54,240 nucleotides of DNA from Candidatus Kaiserbacteria bacterium. Its GTDB lineage: Bacteria; Patescibacteriota; Minisyncoccia; Phycocordibacterales; UBA2100. The notes below the pieces were generated by a model. It saw only the letters and a program-made list of their open reading frames with translations, did no database searches and had not been told where the DNA came from. Position numbers and translations under genes: made by a program. The stretch's first letter is position 1, and each line of letters opens with the position of its first letter. The stretch covers positions 1-54,240 of the forward strand of contig JACRFI010000006.1 in NCBI GenBank assembly GCA_016217965.1, given 5' to 3'. Of the stretch, positions 39,536 to 53,237 are shown one piece after another.

Positions 39536-39610
39536 GCTCTCGTCGTTCAACGGATAGGACATTTCCTTGCGGAGGAAAAAATCGAGGTTCGATTCCTCGC
39601 GAGGGCACCA
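39536..39610 (+). tRNA. tRNA-Arg (anticodon GCG), CCA encoded
   Basis: GCTCTCG/CGAGGGC acceptor, TTTCC-TTGCGGA-GGAAA anticodon arm, CGAGG-TTCGATT-CCTCG T-arm, 3' ACCA. Confidence 0.93.
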
Positions 39611-39612
39611 TC

Positions 39613-40422
39613 TTACGAAGCATTTGCAGAGACAATTCGATCACAAATCGCTTCGCCAAGGGCGAGGACTTCTTTTAGTAGGGCAACACCGCCATATTTA
39701 ACAATGCAAATGCCTTTGAAATTTTGCCTGAATTTTTTCGTTTTGCTGCGCGGTTTAATCCATAGTTTTCCAAATTGAGTTTCCGGTACATCGAGAAGTT
39801 TTGACCAGTATCGTCGAGTTTCTTTCTTCCTGTGATAATAATGTAGGTGCAAGCGGACACGGATTTTCTTTTCATCAATATCAAAACAGTTTCTGAGCAT
39901 CGTTAAATACAATGTAATGAGGCGGGGATCGGTATTCGCAAATATGAGAGCGCACGTCGCTTTGTGCTTTGTCCCCTCTGCCCAATAAAGCATTGAGAGT
40001 AATGCTTTTTGAAATTCCTCGTTTTCTATAGGCAGTTTTTGTGCGGTTGTAACTCCGCGTGAAGCGTGTACCGCGTCGCGTGCCATCTTGTCGCGTCGCA
40101 ATTTCGCGGCGGACAAACCCCTGATACTCTTTAAGTGCTCAAGCCGTGCGTTTTCGTCAAAAAATGCGGGATACTTTTCACCAAGCCAAATTGATAGCGT
40201 GCTTTTTGGTATTGGATGGATTGCGCGAATTTCCGCGTAGGTCATTCCTTTCTTGCGAAGTTTTTCAACTGCATTTTTCTCTGTCTGGGAATATCTATTT
40301 CCGCTCACAGTGTAATTGTACAGCTTACTAGTATTGGTATATAGACATCCGGGTTCGATAGTGTGGATATCTGCAACTTTCCACATGTATCCATTGCGTT
40401 CGATGGCTTGAGGGAGCATCAT
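39613..40422 (-). CDS. HTH + degenerate LAGLIDADG-like protein, 2 nt from tRNA-Arg 3' end
   Basis: HTH 'LRKKGMTYAEIRAIHPIPKSTLSIWLGE'; 'ALLSMLYWAEGTKHKATCALIFANTDPRLITLYLTMLRNCF'; homologous to the 47632 gene. True start may be downstream of 40422. Confidence 0.65.
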   Translation of the reverse strand: MMLPQAIERNGYMWKVADIHTIEPGCLYTNTSKLYNYTVSGNRYSQTEKNAVEKLRKKGMTYAEIRAIHPIPKSTLSIWLGEKYPAFFDENARLEHLKSIRGLSAAKLRRDKMARDAVHASRGVTTAQKLPIENEEFQKALLSMLYWAEGTKHKATCALIFANTDPRLITLYLTMLRNCFDIDEKKIRVRLHLHYYHRKKETRRYWSKLLDVPETQFGKLWIKPRSKTKKFRQNFKGICIVKYGGVALLKEVLALGEAICDRIVSANAS

Positions 40423-40433
40423 TGGGACACATG

Positions 40434-42509
40434 TCCCGCGGGAACTCTCTTATTGCCGGCGTTGTTTTGATTGGGATGCTCTCGACGCTCGCAATTGCGC
40501 TCCAATCCGCGAATCCGCAGGTTGAATCGGATGCGCAAGTTGCATCTGCGAAATTTGCTGCCGACACTACGAAAAAAAAGACGGAAGAGAGTGGAGGTAC
40601 CGAGATAGACTGTGCGCCGGGATATGACTTCAAAGCATTTACGGATAAAGGCGATGTTAAAGTTGAGTGCACTAGAAAAATACAGTGCGGTACGCCACCA
40701 TCTGAACGAGATCCGAAGTCAGGGAAAACAGTGTCGAGTAAGACATTGCAGAAATGTAAAGATGACCTAGTGCTTCCAGGAGAATCGGCGGATAGTAAGA
40801 TTGTAAAAGATTCATGCAGCGCTTGGAAGTCAGAAGTGGAAATTTGTCTAAAGGCTGATCAAACTGCTGGAAAAAAGGAGAAGTGCTTCCATAAGCAACC
40901 CTGTGACAGTGGGAAGAAAATGAATTACAAAGACTTATTGAAGGAAAATGGTACAGGTTTCAAAAAGGCGATGCAGCAAGAACTTGCGGAGGCTGTAGGC
41001 CAGGGGAAAGAAGAAGATGTGCAAAGAATTCGAGGCGAGATAGGTAAGCTGCCGGAAGGAAAAGATATTCTGGATCGATTCAATAAAGAAGAGGGAGCGG
41101 AATTACAAAAAGGTATAGATGAAAGGCTTGAATCGAGGCAAAAAGCACTTGAAGAGTTGAACAAAAAGATTACTGAAGAAACAGATCAAACAAAGAAAGA
41201 GCAGTTAATAAAGGACCGAGAGTTCACGAAGGAAGAAATAAAAGATCTTGAGGAAACAAAAAAACGCCTTGCGCTCGCGCAAAAGGCGTTAACTCCGGCG
41301 GACAGTAAGACGGGCGGTGACCCAAAGTATGATCCAACGACGGGAAAGTGTGTTGCTAATTGTGACAAGGCGGGCAAGGGAGACCCTGGAGGAAACCCAG
41401 GAGGTAATCCAGGGGGAAACCCAGGGGGCAGTCCTGGTGGAAGTCCAAGTGGTGGCTCACCAAGCGGTGGATCACCGAGTGGCGGACAGCCGACGTTCCC
41501 CAACCTGGGACAAAACCAGCAGGGTCAGTGTTCATTCTTTGGTTCTCTCTTTGGGACCTGTGAAGAACTTTCGTGCACAATCACGCTCACGCCGTCGGGA
41601 CAAGCGCAACAAGGACAGCCGCAACCGGGGAATTTACAGTGGCGCACGAGCGGTGGTAACGCACAGTCCGCACAGATAACAAATCTTGGCACCGTTCCTG
41701 CAACAGGACAGGCGCAAGTGCAGAACGCTCAGATGACATACTTCATGCAGGTGCAGGGACAGAACAACCAGAGAGCCTCGTGCCAAACGCAAGCAGGGCA
41801 GAATCCGCAGCAACAGTGCAGCAATCCTTCGTACTTCTGTCGCGAAGGAACGCTCTACTATGGCGTACAAGGCAACAATTTCTGCCAGCCGCAAACGGTG
41901 CAGAAGTGCCAGTTTGGTTGCCAGACGAGCCAGAGCGGCGCCTCGACCGCATGTGCGTCGAGTGGTGCCACGGGAGACGGGCCGACGGCCGAGATATCAT
42001 GTTCACCCACAACTGCAGATGTCGGCATGACGGTTGGTATCACGTATTCCTGCGGGAATTCGATCAAAGGCACAGGTGTTGGTTTTGATACCGGGGACAA
42101 AACAGCAGGGAGCGCGGAAGTAAAAATTGAAAAGCCGCCTACCGGAACTGATACGGTGAGCTATGGCCTCACGTGCACAGCTGAGAATGGGAAGTCCGTG
42201 AACGCTTCGCCTGTGTGCAAAGTAAAAATAAATAAGCCATCGCTCCTTCTTGTCGCAAACCCGAAAAAGATAGACGACGATGACGAAAAGCCTGATACGA
42301 CAACACTCGGGTGGGTGACGAAGGGAATGAAATCCTGCGTTATCTCAAGCCCGGACGATGCTGAATTCACGGAGGAGAACAAAGATAAAAAGAATACCTC
42401 TGGGAGCCTAAAGACAGATGAGCTCGACGAAGACACGGAATATGTCCTTACGTGCATTACGCTTGCAGACCAGGAGAAGGTAACAAAAGTGGAGGTGGAT
42501 GTAATTTAG
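40434..42509 (+). CDS. Large secreted/pilus-like protein with low-complexity GGNP/SGGSP repeat and Cys-rich region
   Basis: 'MSRGNSLIAGVVLIGMLSTLAIALQS' N-terminus; GGNPGGNPGGNPGGSPGGSPSGGSPSGGSPSGG linker. Confidence 0.7.
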   Translation, partial: SRGNSLIAGVVLIGMLSTLAIALQSANPQVESDAQVASAKFAADTTKKKTEESGGTEIDCAPGYDFKAFTDKGDVKVECTRKIQCGTPPSERDPKSGKTVSSKTLQKCKDDLVLPGESADSKIVKDSCSAWKSEVEICLKADQTAGKKEKCFHKQPCDSGKKMNYKDLLKENGTGFKKAMQQELAEAVGQGKEEDVQRIRGEIGKLPEGKDILDRFNKEEGAELQKGIDERLESRQKALEELNKKITEETDQTKKEQLIKDREFTKEEIKDLEETKKRLALAQKALTPADSKTGGDPKYDPTTGKCVANCDKAGKGDPGGNPGGNPGGNPGGSPGGSPSGGSPSGGSPSGGQPTFPNLGQNQQGQCSFFGSLFGTCEELSCTITLTPSGQAQQGQPQPGNLQWRTSGGNAQSAQITNLGTVPATGQAQVQNAQMTYFMQVQGQNNQRASCQTQAGQNPQQQCSNPSYFCREGTLYYGVQGNNFCQPQTVQKCQFGCQTSQSGASTACASSGATGDGPTAEISCSPTTADVGMTVGITYSCGNSIKGTGVGFDTGDKTAGSAEVKIEKPPTGTDTVSYGLTCTAENGKSVNASPVCKVKINKPSLLLVANPKKIDDDDEKPDTTTLGWVTKGMKSCVISSPDDAEFTEENKDKKNTSGSLKTDELDEDTEYVLTCITLADQEKVTKVEVDVI
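41383..41491 (+). repeat. Low-complexity coding repeat GGNP/GGSP/SGGSP
   Basis: Translated repeat in the 40434-42509 ORF. Confidence 0.8.
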
Positions 42510-43006
42510 AGACCAAAAAACTCGAGGATTTTGTGCGCCATGGGTTCTTTCATCGGGACTTCGTCTACACGCTCGCGCAAATAGGCGCGCACATGCTCCG
42601 GGTCTATTCCCCCCAGCGGTATCACGAGGTTTGGTGCCATGAATTTCGTCGTATCAACGAGGAGAAGCGGGTCGTCTTCTGCTTCTGTCTCGACCCAGAA
42701 AGAGATTATGTCGCTGTAGGTGTGGAGTGCATCGCCCGCTCTGATGCCGCGCTCGGATATTTCGAAATCATGCAGATCCGGTGGAGTCCTGGCGATAAGC
42801 GCGATGACGCTTGCCGCGACGACAATGAGAAGCGCGAACAGAATATTACCGAAAAGAACGCTCGTGAGAGCTGCGCACACGGCAATAATACCGAGCGCCC
42901 AGAACCAATCACTCGTGCGCTCTATGTGCTCGTGTTCATATGCGCTCCACCTTAGAGGAGCCGAAGGCGATTCGGGCATGCCGATATTGTAACTTGTTTT
43001 CAACAC
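42506..43006 (-). CDS. Hypothetical membrane protein
   Basis: Two TM segments 'WFWALGIIAVCAALTSVLFGNILFALLIVVAASVIALI'. Confidence 0.65.
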   Translation of the reverse strand: MLKTSYNIGMPESPSAPLRWSAYEHEHIERTSDWFWALGIIAVCAALTSVLFGNILFALLIVVAASVIALIARTPPDLHDFEISERGIRAGDALHTYSDIISFWVETEAEDDPLLLVDTTKFMAPNLVIPLGGIDPEHVRAYLRERVDEVPMKEPMAHKILEFFGL

Positions 43007-43058
43007 GATTCATTGAATTAAGTCACAGTTTGTGCGAATCATGCGGTAGACTGGATGG

Positions 43059-43580
43059 ATGGGTGAGAAATATATCCGGACTCCAAATGTGAAGTGTGCC
43101 GTCTGCGAGAAGCTCGTCTACAGGAGACCTGTGGAACTTCAGATCAGCAACGGAAAAGCATATTGCGGCCAAATTTGTTATGGGCTTTCGCAGCGGAAAG
43201 AAACACCATGTGCCGTGTGCAAAATTCCTATCCTTGCAAGTAAACACGCAAAAACTTGTAGTCGGGCATGCGCGAATAAATACAGAACCGGTATCAAATA
43301 CAAACTTGGCAGACCCAAAAAAGACAAGGTTCAAAATCAGAGAGCGTTGAAATTGCGTCTGATTCAAGAAAGAGGGACAAAATGTGAGCGTTGCGGATAT
43401 TCGAAGATCGAGATTCTGCAGGTGCATCATTGCGATCGAGACAGAAACAACAACGAGTTGAAGAATCTTGAATTAATATGTCCGAATTGTCACTACGAGG
43501 AACATTATTTAGAAAAAAGCTGGCTTAATGCTAGTCTAGTTTCGGAGGCGTCGGATAGTGGTTCATTCCAGCGCACTTGA
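43059..43580 (+). CDS. Freestanding HNH endonuclease with N-terminal zinc-finger pairs; 3' end overlaps tRNA-Ser
   Basis: CxxC/CxxxC pairs, 'CERCGYSKIEILQVHHCDRDRNNNELKNLELICPNCHYEEH'; stop TGA 43578-43580. Confidence 0.88.
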   Translation: MGEKYIRTPNVKCAVCEKLVYRRPVELQISNGKAYCGQICYGLSQRKETPCAVCKIPILASKHAKTCSRACANKYRTGIKYKLGRPKKDKVQNQRALKLRLIQERGTKCERCGYSKIEILQVHHCDRDRNNNELKNLELICPNCHYEEHYLEKSWLNASLVSEASDSGSFQRT

Positions 43581-43628
43581 AATGCGCCAGGCTGAAAGGC
43601 CTCGTGAGTTCGAATCTCACCGCCTCCG
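43544..43628 (+). tRNA. tRNA-Ser (anticodon TGA)
   Basis: GGAGGCG/CGCCTCC acceptor, GCGCA-CTTGAAA-TGCGC anticodon arm, long variable arm, GTGAG-TTCGAAT-CTCAC T-arm, G73; CCA not encoded. Confidence 0.95.
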
Positions 43629-43637
43629 AAAATTTCT

Positions 43638-47462: not shown

Positions 47463-47535
47463 TGCGCGGTGAGGGATTCGAACCCCCGACCCTTCGAATG
47501 TAAATCGAGCGCTCTACCAACTGAGCTAACCGCGC
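47463..47535 (-). tRNA. tRNA-Val (anticodon TAC)
   Basis: GCGCGGT/ACCGCGC acceptor, GCTC..GAGC D-arm, loop TTTACAT, GGGGG-TTCGAAT-CCCTC T-arm; CCA not encoded. Confidence 0.93.
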
Positions 47536-47631: not shown

Positions 47632-48336
47632 ATGAGAAGACGAGAAAAAGAGCAAGCTCGATTATTGCGGCAGAGTGGGAAATCCGTAAAAGAGATAGAA
47701 CGATTACTTAACGTGCCCCGATCCAGTGTGAGTGTCTGGGTTCGAGACATTCCGTTGACAGCGATGCAGAAAAAGAGACTTTCGGAGCGTGGACATTCTC
47801 TTGAGGTGCTTGAGAAGCGAAGAAGTACTCGATTGGCGAACGAAAGTAGACGTCGCACAATTTTCCTTGAAAAGGGACACTCAGATATTAAGGAATTTCC
47901 TGATATAGATGTATTTATGCTTGGAATCGGTCTCTATTTGGGCGAAGGATCAAAAACTGATCGAGGAAAAATTGAGTTATCAAACACAGACCCAAGAATT
48001 ATCCAAATTTTCATCAGATTTCTTATGCAATCTTGCGGTTACCCTTTGTCAAGAATACACGCGACCATCGGCATACATTCACATTTGTCGATCGATAAAG
48101 CAGAAAAATACTGGTCTACAATTTCGGGTATTCCGCTTAGACAATTTTCAAAAACGTTTATTCAGATAAGTAGGGCTGGCAAGGGCGAACGCGACAAATT
48201 ACCATTTGGCACGTTCAGCGTTGGCGTGTATGACACCGCGGCCAGAGTGCGGTTGGAGGGGTGGATCCAGGGAATTTATAAAAGACTGTTTCCAACGGAA
48301 TACGTTCTCCACAGTATGACTAAATTGCGTATATGA
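47632..48336 (+). CDS. HTH + degenerate LAGLIDADG-like protein, near tRNA-Val/tRNA-Arg pair
   Basis: HTH 'LLRQSGKSVKEIERLLNVPRSSVSVWVRDIP'; 'VFMLGIGLYLGEGSKTDRGKIELSNTDPRIIQIFIRFLMQSCGY'. Confidence 0.75.
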   Translation: MRRREKEQARLLRQSGKSVKEIERLLNVPRSSVSVWVRDIPLTAMQKKRLSERGHSLEVLEKRRSTRLANESRRRTIFLEKGHSDIKEFPDIDVFMLGIGLYLGEGSKTDRGKIELSNTDPRIIQIFIRFLMQSCGYPLSRIHATIGIHSHLSIDKAEKYWSTISGIPLRQFSKTFIQISRAGKGERDKLPFGTFSVGVYDTAARVRLEGWIQGIYKRLFPTEYVLHSMTKLRI

Positions 48337-48843: not shown

Positions 48844-48920
48844 TCAATTTTCTTTGGGAATTTTTTATTTGTCCACAACTAGTAGACGCTACTTACTTGA
48901 GATTATGATATTCTGGGAGG

Positions 48921-49592
48921 ATGGGGAAGCGGGGCCCAAAGCCCAAACGGATCGTTTCTGAGAAATGGTCGTCAAATCTAGCGTATGCAGTCGGTCTTTT
49001 GGCGACTGATGGGTGCATGTCCCCAAGAGTGCATTTAATTGACCTCACTTCGAAGGATCTGGAGCAGCTTGAGAATTTTTGCAAATGCATAGGCGTTCAA
49101 TTGAATATTGGCCGCAAATCATCTGGCTTCGGGGAGAAAAATATTCTACGAGTCCAAATGAAAAACGTATTCTTTTATAATTTTCTATTGTCTATCGGGC
49201 TTACTCCAGCTAAATCAAGAACATTGGGGCCGCTCAAAGTTCCGAAGAAATATTTCTTTGATTTTCTTCGCGGTGTCTTTGATGGAGATGGATGCACCTA
49301 TTCGTATTGGGACCCGCGCTGGCGATCCAGCTTTATGTATTATCTTTGCTTCGCATCAGCCAGTACCCTGTTCGTTACGTGGATTAGAAAGGAGATTCAG
49401 GCGCGATTAGGTGTCACAGGTCACGTGACGTCCGCAACAAAGAAGAATACTTATTACAATTTGAAGTACGCAAAACACGACAGTCTCAAAATATTGCGAA
49501 AAATGTACAGCACAAGTCCTTCACCCATCTATTTATCGCGCAAAAGATTGAAAATAGAGCAAATGTTACGTATAGTTGGGCAGCGTCTTTAG
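48921..49592 (+). CDS. Freestanding LAGLIDADG homing endonuclease, upstream of tRNA-Leu
   Basis: Two LAGLIDADG-type motifs: 'AYAVGLLATDGCM' and 'FLRGVFDGDGCTYSY'; GGGAGG SD-like sequence. Confidence 0.9.
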   Translation: MGKRGPKPKRIVSEKWSSNLAYAVGLLATDGCMSPRVHLIDLTSKDLEQLENFCKCIGVQLNIGRKSSGFGEKNILRVQMKNVFFYNFLLSIGLTPAKSRTLGPLKVPKKYFFDFLRGVFDGDGCTYSYWDPRWRSSFMYYLCFASASTLFVTWIRKEIQARLGVTGHVTSATKKNTYYNLKYAKHDSLKILRKMYSTSPSPIYLSRKRLKIEQMLRIVGQRL

Positions 49593-49626: not shown

Positions 49627-49710
49627 GCCCGGGTGTTGAAACTGGTAGACATTATTCCTTGAGGTGGAATAGCTCGCAAGGGCGTGCAGGTTCGAGTCCT
49701 GTCCCGGGCA
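49627..49710 (+). tRNA. tRNA-Leu (anticodon GAG)
   Basis: GCCCGGG/CCCGGGC acceptor, ATTCC-TTGAGGT-GGAAT anticodon arm, long variable arm, GCAGG-TTCGAGT-CCTGT T-arm; CCA not encoded. Confidence 0.94.
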
Positions 49711-52553: not shown

Positions 52554-53042
52554 ATGGTTTACGTAATGTGCAAGAGTTGTGGTAAGGAATTTTCCGCTAA
52601 ACCCTCGCATATTGCAAACGGTTACGCAAAGTACTGTTCATCAAAGTGTCAACATGATGCGGCGCGAACGGGAGTCTGGCTAAAATGCGAGGGCTGCGGC
52701 AAGAGTGTTTATAGAACTCCGAAATATGTTAATGCTTCAAAAAGCAAAAAGTATTTTTGCAGCAAATCTTGCCAAACAGTTTGGAGAAATAAGGAATTCA
52801 GTGGAATGCGACACGCACATTGGAAGCATGGAATGGGATCTTATAGGAATATTATGAAGCGAGCGGGCAAAGATGTCTCTTGCGAACTTTGCAAATCAAC
52901 AGATGAGCGTGTGATCGTTGTTCACCACAAAGATCAAAATCGAATGAATAACGCCTTGAGCAACTTAGTATGGTTGTGTCGCAATTGTCACTACATTGTC
53001 CATCAGTATCCTGATGGACGTGTTCACGGCTTGATTGTATAG
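52554..53042 (+). CDS. Freestanding HNH endonuclease with N-terminal zinc-finger pairs, 10 nt upstream of tRNA-His
   Basis: 'CKSCGKEF..YCSSKC', 'CEGCGKSV..FCSKSC', 'VIVVHHKDQNRMNNALSNLVWLCRNCHYIVHQ'; start trimmed to 52554 (TATAAT 7 nt upstream). Confidence 0.9.
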   Translation: MVYVMCKSCGKEFSAKPSHIANGYAKYCSSKCQHDAARTGVWLKCEGCGKSVYRTPKYVNASKSKKYFCSKSCQTVWRNKEFSGMRHAHWKHGMGSYRNIMKRAGKDVSCELCKSTDERVIVVHHKDQNRMNNALSNLVWLCRNCHYIVHQYPDGRVHGLIV

Positions 53043-53052
53043 TCAGCGAAAT

Positions 53053-53126
53053 GGTGGTTGTAGCTCAGTTGGTAGAGCTCCGGTTTGTGGTACCGGCGGT
53101 CGTGGGTTCGAGCCCCATCAACCACC
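53053..53126 (+). tRNA. tRNA-His (anticodon GTG) with G-1:C73
   Basis: GTGGTTG/CAACCAC acceptor preceded by G-1, CCGGT-TTGTGGT-ACCGG anticodon arm, GTGGG-TTCGAGC-CCCAT T-arm; CCA not encoded. Confidence 0.94.
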
Positions 53127-53237
53127 CCGAAATAGTGTGAAAGAAAGATGAACGTGGCGCGTCCTTTAAAGAGACGCGCTATAGGTCTGTTACAATAGTC
53201 TTGCAGCGCGATTTATATTTAATAGTTTTCTATATTC

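Follow-up and report, generated by a model that had tools for sequence, protein, structure and literature searches.

The locus described here raises the question of why the open reading frame (ORF) of an HNH endonuclease-like gene runs into a tRNA-Ser gene and ends at its anticodon, and what kind of gene occupies such a position. The window, i.e., the whole stretch of 54,240 nt analysed from an ultra-small Candidatus Kaiserbacteria bacterium, carries both genes on the same strand (Table 1). The HNH ORF starts with ATG and remains open across the 5' acceptor strand, the D-arm, and the anticodon stem of the tRNA. The sequence, ARAGORN, and Rfam agreed with the sequence-only reading that the first in-frame stop is exactly the anticodon and that twelve codons, the stop counted, lie inside the tRNA gene. 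The Rfam tRNA model scored 52.7 bits, over its gathering score, and its bounds were preferred to those of ARAGORN because they fit GGAGGCG/CGCCTCC plus a discriminator G; the earlier start of the tRNA at 43542 is 2 nt early by this measure. In both predictions the tRNA is uninterrupted and contiguous beside the HNH ORF, and the Rfam gathering hits within the window were tRNAs only, which shows that the HNH gene is free-standing, with no intron or intein around it.

Table 1. Positions of the HNH gene, its tRNA, the associated signals, and the other endonuclease-like genes in the window.
Feature	Position	Strand	Basis or remark
HNH endonuclease-like gene, 173 aa	43059..43580	+	ORF; PF01844 above cut-off; PHROG HNH families; 84 homologous loci
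tRNA-Ser(UGA)	43544..43628	+	ARAGORN 43543-43629; Rfam tRNA 43544-43628; fold
TGA, both HNH stop codon and tRNA anticodon	43578..43580	+	sequence
DUF5673-like upstream neighbour (weak match)	42506..43006	-	marks empty or occupied site in relatives
-10 hexamer TAGACT, ending 6 nt before HNH start codon	43047..43052	+	family alignment
Conserved start block GGATGGATGGGTGAG; in-register likeness to tRNA-Ser positions 1-15	43053..43067	+	
Candidate embedded extended -10 for the tRNA, inside HNH 3' end (TGCTAGTCT)	43529..43537	+	
HTH/LAGLIDADG-like gene	39613..40422	-	no clear Pfam domain; homologous to the gene at 47632
HTH/LAGLIDADG-like gene	47632..48336	+	Pfam gives HTH; family assigned by sequence inspection only
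Copy of tRNA-Leu D-loop-to-anticodon (AACTAGTAGACGCTACTTACTTGAG), upstream of LAGLIDADG gene	48877..48901	+	
LAGLIDADG_3 endonuclease-like gene, 34 nt 5' of tRNA-Leu(gag)	48921..49592	+	PF14528
tRNA-Leu(gag)	49627..49710	+	ARAGORN, Rfam
Second HNH gene (start inferred), 11 nt 5' of tRNA-His	52554..53042	+	homologues beside tRNA-His
tRNA-His(gtg)	53054..53128	+	

The HNH assignment was based on PF01844 and the PHROG HNH families. Residues H123, H124, N136, N143, and H145 and the zinc-ligand cysteines were invariant in 20 sequences; the nuclease domain has thus kept its catalytic residues, and activity is predicted from the sequence. The predicted model contains a beta-beta-alpha HNH part at residues 121-161 and a low-confidence tail (block means of about 48-54 from residue 151, below 50 at 166-172), in which the tRNA-encoded residues lie. 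The top matches of the fold search were only HNH/endonuclease VII-type nucleases, none below an E value of 0.001, and, apart from a designed repeat protein and cytochromes, the PDB sequence search returned only weak matches to HNH proteins.

The 84 distinct homologous loci were drawn from relatives and named genomes, and 82 of them had at least 150 bp of downstream DNA. tRNA-Ser(TGA) was found directly 3' and on the same strand in 80/82 loci, and the gene was not 5' of this tRNA in the other 2. With about 75 loci compared on each side, the neighbouring genes formed 43 clusters upstream and 57 downstream; as the flanking genes vary so widely, the tRNA is the constant of the family, and the flush placement is overwhelmingly beyond chance. 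The hosts are mostly Patescibacteria (Kaiser-, Nomura-, Taylor-, Yanofsky-, Uhr-, Davies-, Azam-, and Moranbacteria, and others), and a family member was present in 35 of the 397 genomes sampled from the order. Homologues in phages had at most about 35% identity. Two records not labelled Patescibacteria, Oscillochloris sp. ZM17-4 (L287) and a MAG labelled Burkholderiales (L278), also carry a family member beside tRNA-Ser(TGA), by transfer or mis-binning.

The position of the stop codon was compared among the homologues. The conserved HNH core ends at about residue 150-156, and the stop codon varies in place, from 64 nt within the tRNA to 108 nt upstream of it. The ORF ended at or inside the tRNA in 22/80 loci, compared with 16.5/80 expected by chance from the core-to-tRNA distance and the stop frequency measured in the ORF tail. 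The stops inside the tRNA were spread over many positions, at a rate close to that of chance, with no conservation of position. When all possible frames entering these tRNAs were considered, 57/240 (~24%) first stopped at the anticodon TGA, and this stop is used in four loci, i.e., the window, L223 (Azambacteria), L280 (Taylorbacteria), and L288. These results show that the stop at the anticodon is a coincidence, a by-product of the arrangement; a designed feature is ruled out by its chance-level occurrence. With the insertion flush against the tRNA, the unconserved ORF tail drifts in and out of it, ending at the first in-frame stop. The earlier view that a missing stop characterizes the insertion is not supported, since 58/80 homologues have their own stop ahead of the tRNA and the others are scattered. 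Nor is the HNH C-terminus (..SDSGSFQRT) unique, a point that the sequence-only reading had proposed to check: L223 and L288 end in ..SDSGLFHRT, near-identical to it because they share the same tRNA D-arm type and frame.

An insertion immediately upstream of the tRNA had also been proposed, and the tRNA-Ser(TGA) locus of relatives without the HNH gene bears this out. The orthologous site, marked by the DUF5673-like neighbour gene, was found in 49/52 same-genus genomes. In about 17 of those without HNH the site is empty, with 25-55 nt from the neighbour-gene start to tRNA-Ser, and in five genomes (G000, G018, G023, G010, and G035) the gap is filled by HNH. In G021 the HNH 3' end alone (ctacttagaaaaaagctggcttaatggtag) remains before the tRNA as a deletion scar. 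The HNH gene is therefore polymorphic for presence and absence at one fixed site. On the neighbour-gene tree of 49 genomes, its presence required 6 changes (shuffled mean 6.7), and close pairs differed. The presence is scattered, with high turnover, and the tree does not separate gain from loss. Within the set L174, L177, L184, L186, L187, L190, L202, L206, and L207, which represents this locus in the genus, several genomes have a pilin-like gene (GFTLIELLVVIAIIG) separating tRNA-Ser from the neighbour gene, and in some the tRNA is inverted.

An extended -10 hexamer ending exactly 6 nt before the HNH start was detected in 72/83 loci (consensus TTGTGGTATACTGGATGA|GTG). The family -10 consensus is TGTGGTATACT, and the window has CG where the extended TG is expected; a simple two-hexamer promoter scan at the window locus gave no promoter. 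As the -10 is fixed 6 nt before the start codon, transcription would begin at about the start codon, which suggests a leaderless HNH mRNA continuing into the tRNA. An embedded extended -10 before the tRNA was present in 19/80 loci, the window among them, with 3.7 expected, and the window's candidate could transcribe tRNA-Ser alone. TGGTACAAC-like motifs, read by eye, occur shortly before the tRNA in most empty sites.

Similar arrangements were observed at other tRNAs. The second HNH gene of the window belongs to a family that lay beside tRNA-His in 13/13 homologous loci fetched, and 29/29 LAGLIDADG_3-family loci with room had the gene 5' of a tRNA-Leu gene. In the window's genome, about 10/36 tRNAs have an endonuclease-like neighbour, with some family assignments made by inspection: seven (Ser(tga), His, Leu(gag), Asp, Gln(ctg), Thr(cgt), and Ser(gct)) have it flush 5' and codirectional, and Val(tac), Arg(gcg), and Thr(tgt) make up the remainder. 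Each of the genome's three HNH matches (one below the cut-off) lies beside a tRNA, as do four of the LAGLIDADG_3 proteins; of the remaining matches, two are in long intein-like proteins and two are weak ones elsewhere. Related cutting-gene families thus each keep to their own tRNA across the group. Tandem HNH doublets directly 5' of tRNA-His were seen in L019, L021, L022, and L024-L026.

Taken together, we consider it rather probable that the HNH gene is a free-standing homing endonuclease-like selfish gene that targets tRNA-Ser(TGA) and is kept upstream of this essential tRNA. The tRNA-specific flush position, the empty sites, the scattered presence, the scar, the conserved -10, and the chance-level overlap were observed here; cleavage, the target site, homing, a joint transcript, and retention by linkage are inferred. 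The target would probably be the tRNA-Ser(TGA) gene itself, at whose 5' end the HNH gene sits flush on the same strand, and the gene would spread into empty alleles by double-strand-break repair. The leaderless mRNA expected from the -10 box would extend into the tRNA, which RNase P would free from the joint transcript, and the promoter embedded in the HNH 3' end could also serve the tRNA in some loci. A seat upstream of an essential tRNA would make precise loss hard at a small cost, allowing HNH to persist. Against homing, the scattered presence could result from repeated loss alone. The canonical D-arm found in the adjoining tRNA at 24/80 loci also sits uneasily with immunity of the gene's own allele, and the 2/82 loci placed elsewhere are exceptions to the pattern.

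Sequences resembling the target were found within the elements. An AATTGGTAGACGCTATTACCTTGAG-like sequence, corresponding to the tRNA-Leu D-loop-to-anticodon region, occurs upstream of the Leu-linked gene in 23/29 loci, and has CAG rather than GAG where the adjoining tRNA is Leu(cag). The HNH start block matched tRNA-Ser positions 1-15 with a mean of 0.57 (shuffled consensus 0.29, sd 0.064), a likeness that coding and promoter constraint may partly explain. Because they are conserved within the element, these sequences look like an element-borne target copy, serving as operator or homology arm, and not fresh scars; the Leu copy, having its own conserved spacing, seems to travel with the gene. 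A fresh tRNA relic upstream in all loci was rejected, as comparison of each such region with the tRNA downstream of it gave a signal for Leu only. L245 has two copies of the 12-mer ATGGTGTGTTAT, one ahead of the HNH gene and one following tRNA-Ser; both replace the tRNA T-loop within tRNA-Ser-like 3' ends.

In synthetic cleave-and-rescue gene drives, an engineered endonuclease is coupled to a version of an essential gene that it cannot cut. A natural counterpart could be imagined here, in which the mobile unit comprises the endonuclease and an altered, uncuttable tRNA copy, breaking the native tRNA gene and supplying the substitute; the likeness to the synthetic drives holds if this is right, and immunity through an altered target is a proposal. 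Possible scars, though rare, point in this direction: native-type tRNA-Ile positions 1-35 lie upstream of the gene in L117, where the downstream tRNA has a different sequence, a native tRNA-Ile 36-64 relic follows the new tRNA in L118, and tRNA relics follow the tRNA in L090 and L267. The tRNA-Ser D-arm beside HNH was non-canonical in 56/80 loci and canonical in 24/80, with a median HNH-tRNA gap of 4 nt for the former and 47 nt for the latter (p=9e-6), and a canonical D-arm was rarer in genomes with the gene (12/35) than in those without it (218/362, p=0.004), both statistics ignoring phylogeny. The sister genomes G010 (with HNH) and G004 (without) also differ in the 5' half of the tRNA. However, genomes without the gene often have non-canonical D-arms too, the D-arm class clusters only weakly on the HNH tree, clear scars are few, and the independent-pairs test within the genus had few pairs. 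For tRNA-Leu the D-arm comparison (1/26 with the gene versus 15/119 without) was not significant. We thus regard this explanation as unlikely, and it is with the same doubt that Patescibacteria may be said to host natural cleave-and-rescue families, each pairing an isoacceptor-cutting endonuclease with an altered tRNA in one, sometimes overlapping, transcription unit.

The constancy of each family at one tRNA across distant genomes would also be expected of a domesticated host gene whose protein regulates, processes, or protects its own tRNA and is kept adjacent for co-expression. This appears quite improbable, as HNH is missing from most genomes, including close relatives with the same tRNA locus, and its domain and fold are those of DNA nucleases. 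There is still less to commend the view that the stop inside the tRNA sets endonuclease synthesis against tRNA maturation. The geometry in the window and the 22 loci ending at or inside the tRNA would suit such a functional overlap, but the chance-level rates, the unconserved position, and the many loci that stop before the tRNA make it very improbable; moreover, tmRNA is present in the window's genome and could rescue a stop-less HNH mRNA.

The homing reading has precedents in phages. SegB of T-even phages is a free-standing GIY-YIG homing endonuclease of tRNA clusters that cleaves inside tRNA genes and drives the inheritance of the tRNA-bearing region (PMC2988022, PMC13096335). SegB and the HNH gene are both free-standing endonuclease genes beside tRNA genes. 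However, SegB resides in phage tRNA arrays with no isotype preference, whereas the families here are HNH or LAGLIDADG and each keep, flush 5', to one chromosomal isoacceptor; membership of the SegB family was rejected, as the protein has an HNH domain only and no GIY-YIG domain. The free-standing seg and mob genes of T4 are intergenic and perform intronless homing, the mob genes being HNH, and promoters embedded in the endonuclease gene have been proposed to favour their retention (PMC2988022). Where their cut sites are known, these are hundreds or thousands of bp away, and their targets are phage genes (PMC2988022); homing was demonstrated for them, whereas we infer it for HNH here. The mechanism of the HNH gene would most likely be like that of T4 seg/mob and SegB. 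In CPR bacteria, the same bacterial group, LAGLIDADG homing endonucleases likewise have an RNA gene as host locus, but they sit inside insertions within rRNA genes, whereas the tRNA here is uninterrupted; the text of that report makes no mention of tRNA (PMC11270868). A group I intron or tRNA-intron endonuclease was rejected, the tRNA being intact and no intron family being among the Rfam hits, as was an integrase-type tRNA-integrating element, the same-genus insertion being a single HNH ORF on the 5' side without an integrase.

In the literature searched, with most subscription papers and preprints outside its coverage, no description of tRNA-flush endonuclease genes in Patescibacteria was found. 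If the homing reading is true, free-standing homing endonucleases would regularly reside at tRNA genes in a small-genome bacterial supergroup, and many of its orphan HNH and LAGLIDADG ORFs would be accounted for. Each of these nucleases would then have a target that can be predicted, one isoacceptor, and the group would provide a natural setting in which to ask if essential tRNA sequences are reshaped by selfish endonucleases.

The HTH/LAGLIDADG-like gene at 47632 lies 96 nt from the 5' end of tRNA-Val(tac) (47463-47535, minus strand) and diverges from it, and that at 39613 abuts tRNA-Arg(gcg) (39536-39610) at 2 nt in convergent orientation. Genes of this kind adjoin the tRNAs for Ile(tat), Trp, Val, Ala, Gly, Lys, Gln, and Arg, and many end inside the tRNA, with a gap of -10 (positions 8-10, T8A9G10), -15 (positions 13-15), or, in tRNA-Val(gac), -35. 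One HTH/LAGLIDADG-like gene of the window's genome (L160, G000 C17:27785) has no adjoining tRNA and lies directly 3' of a methionyl-tRNA-synthetase-like gene. The intein-like LAGLIDADG_3 matches (L155 and L156, G000 C2) are in long ORFs for DNA polymerase III-like and SMC-like proteins. A second endonuclease-tRNA overlap in this genome was found at tRNA-Asp(gtc), where the upstream LAGLIDADG gene (C11:143480-144210, L041/L058) reads into the tRNA and terminates at its positions 8-10 (gap -10). Serine-recombinase-like ORFs, recognized by inspection only, are convergent into the 3' ends of this tRNA-Asp (L041, G000 C11) and of tRNA-Ala(tgc) (L039, G000 C22).
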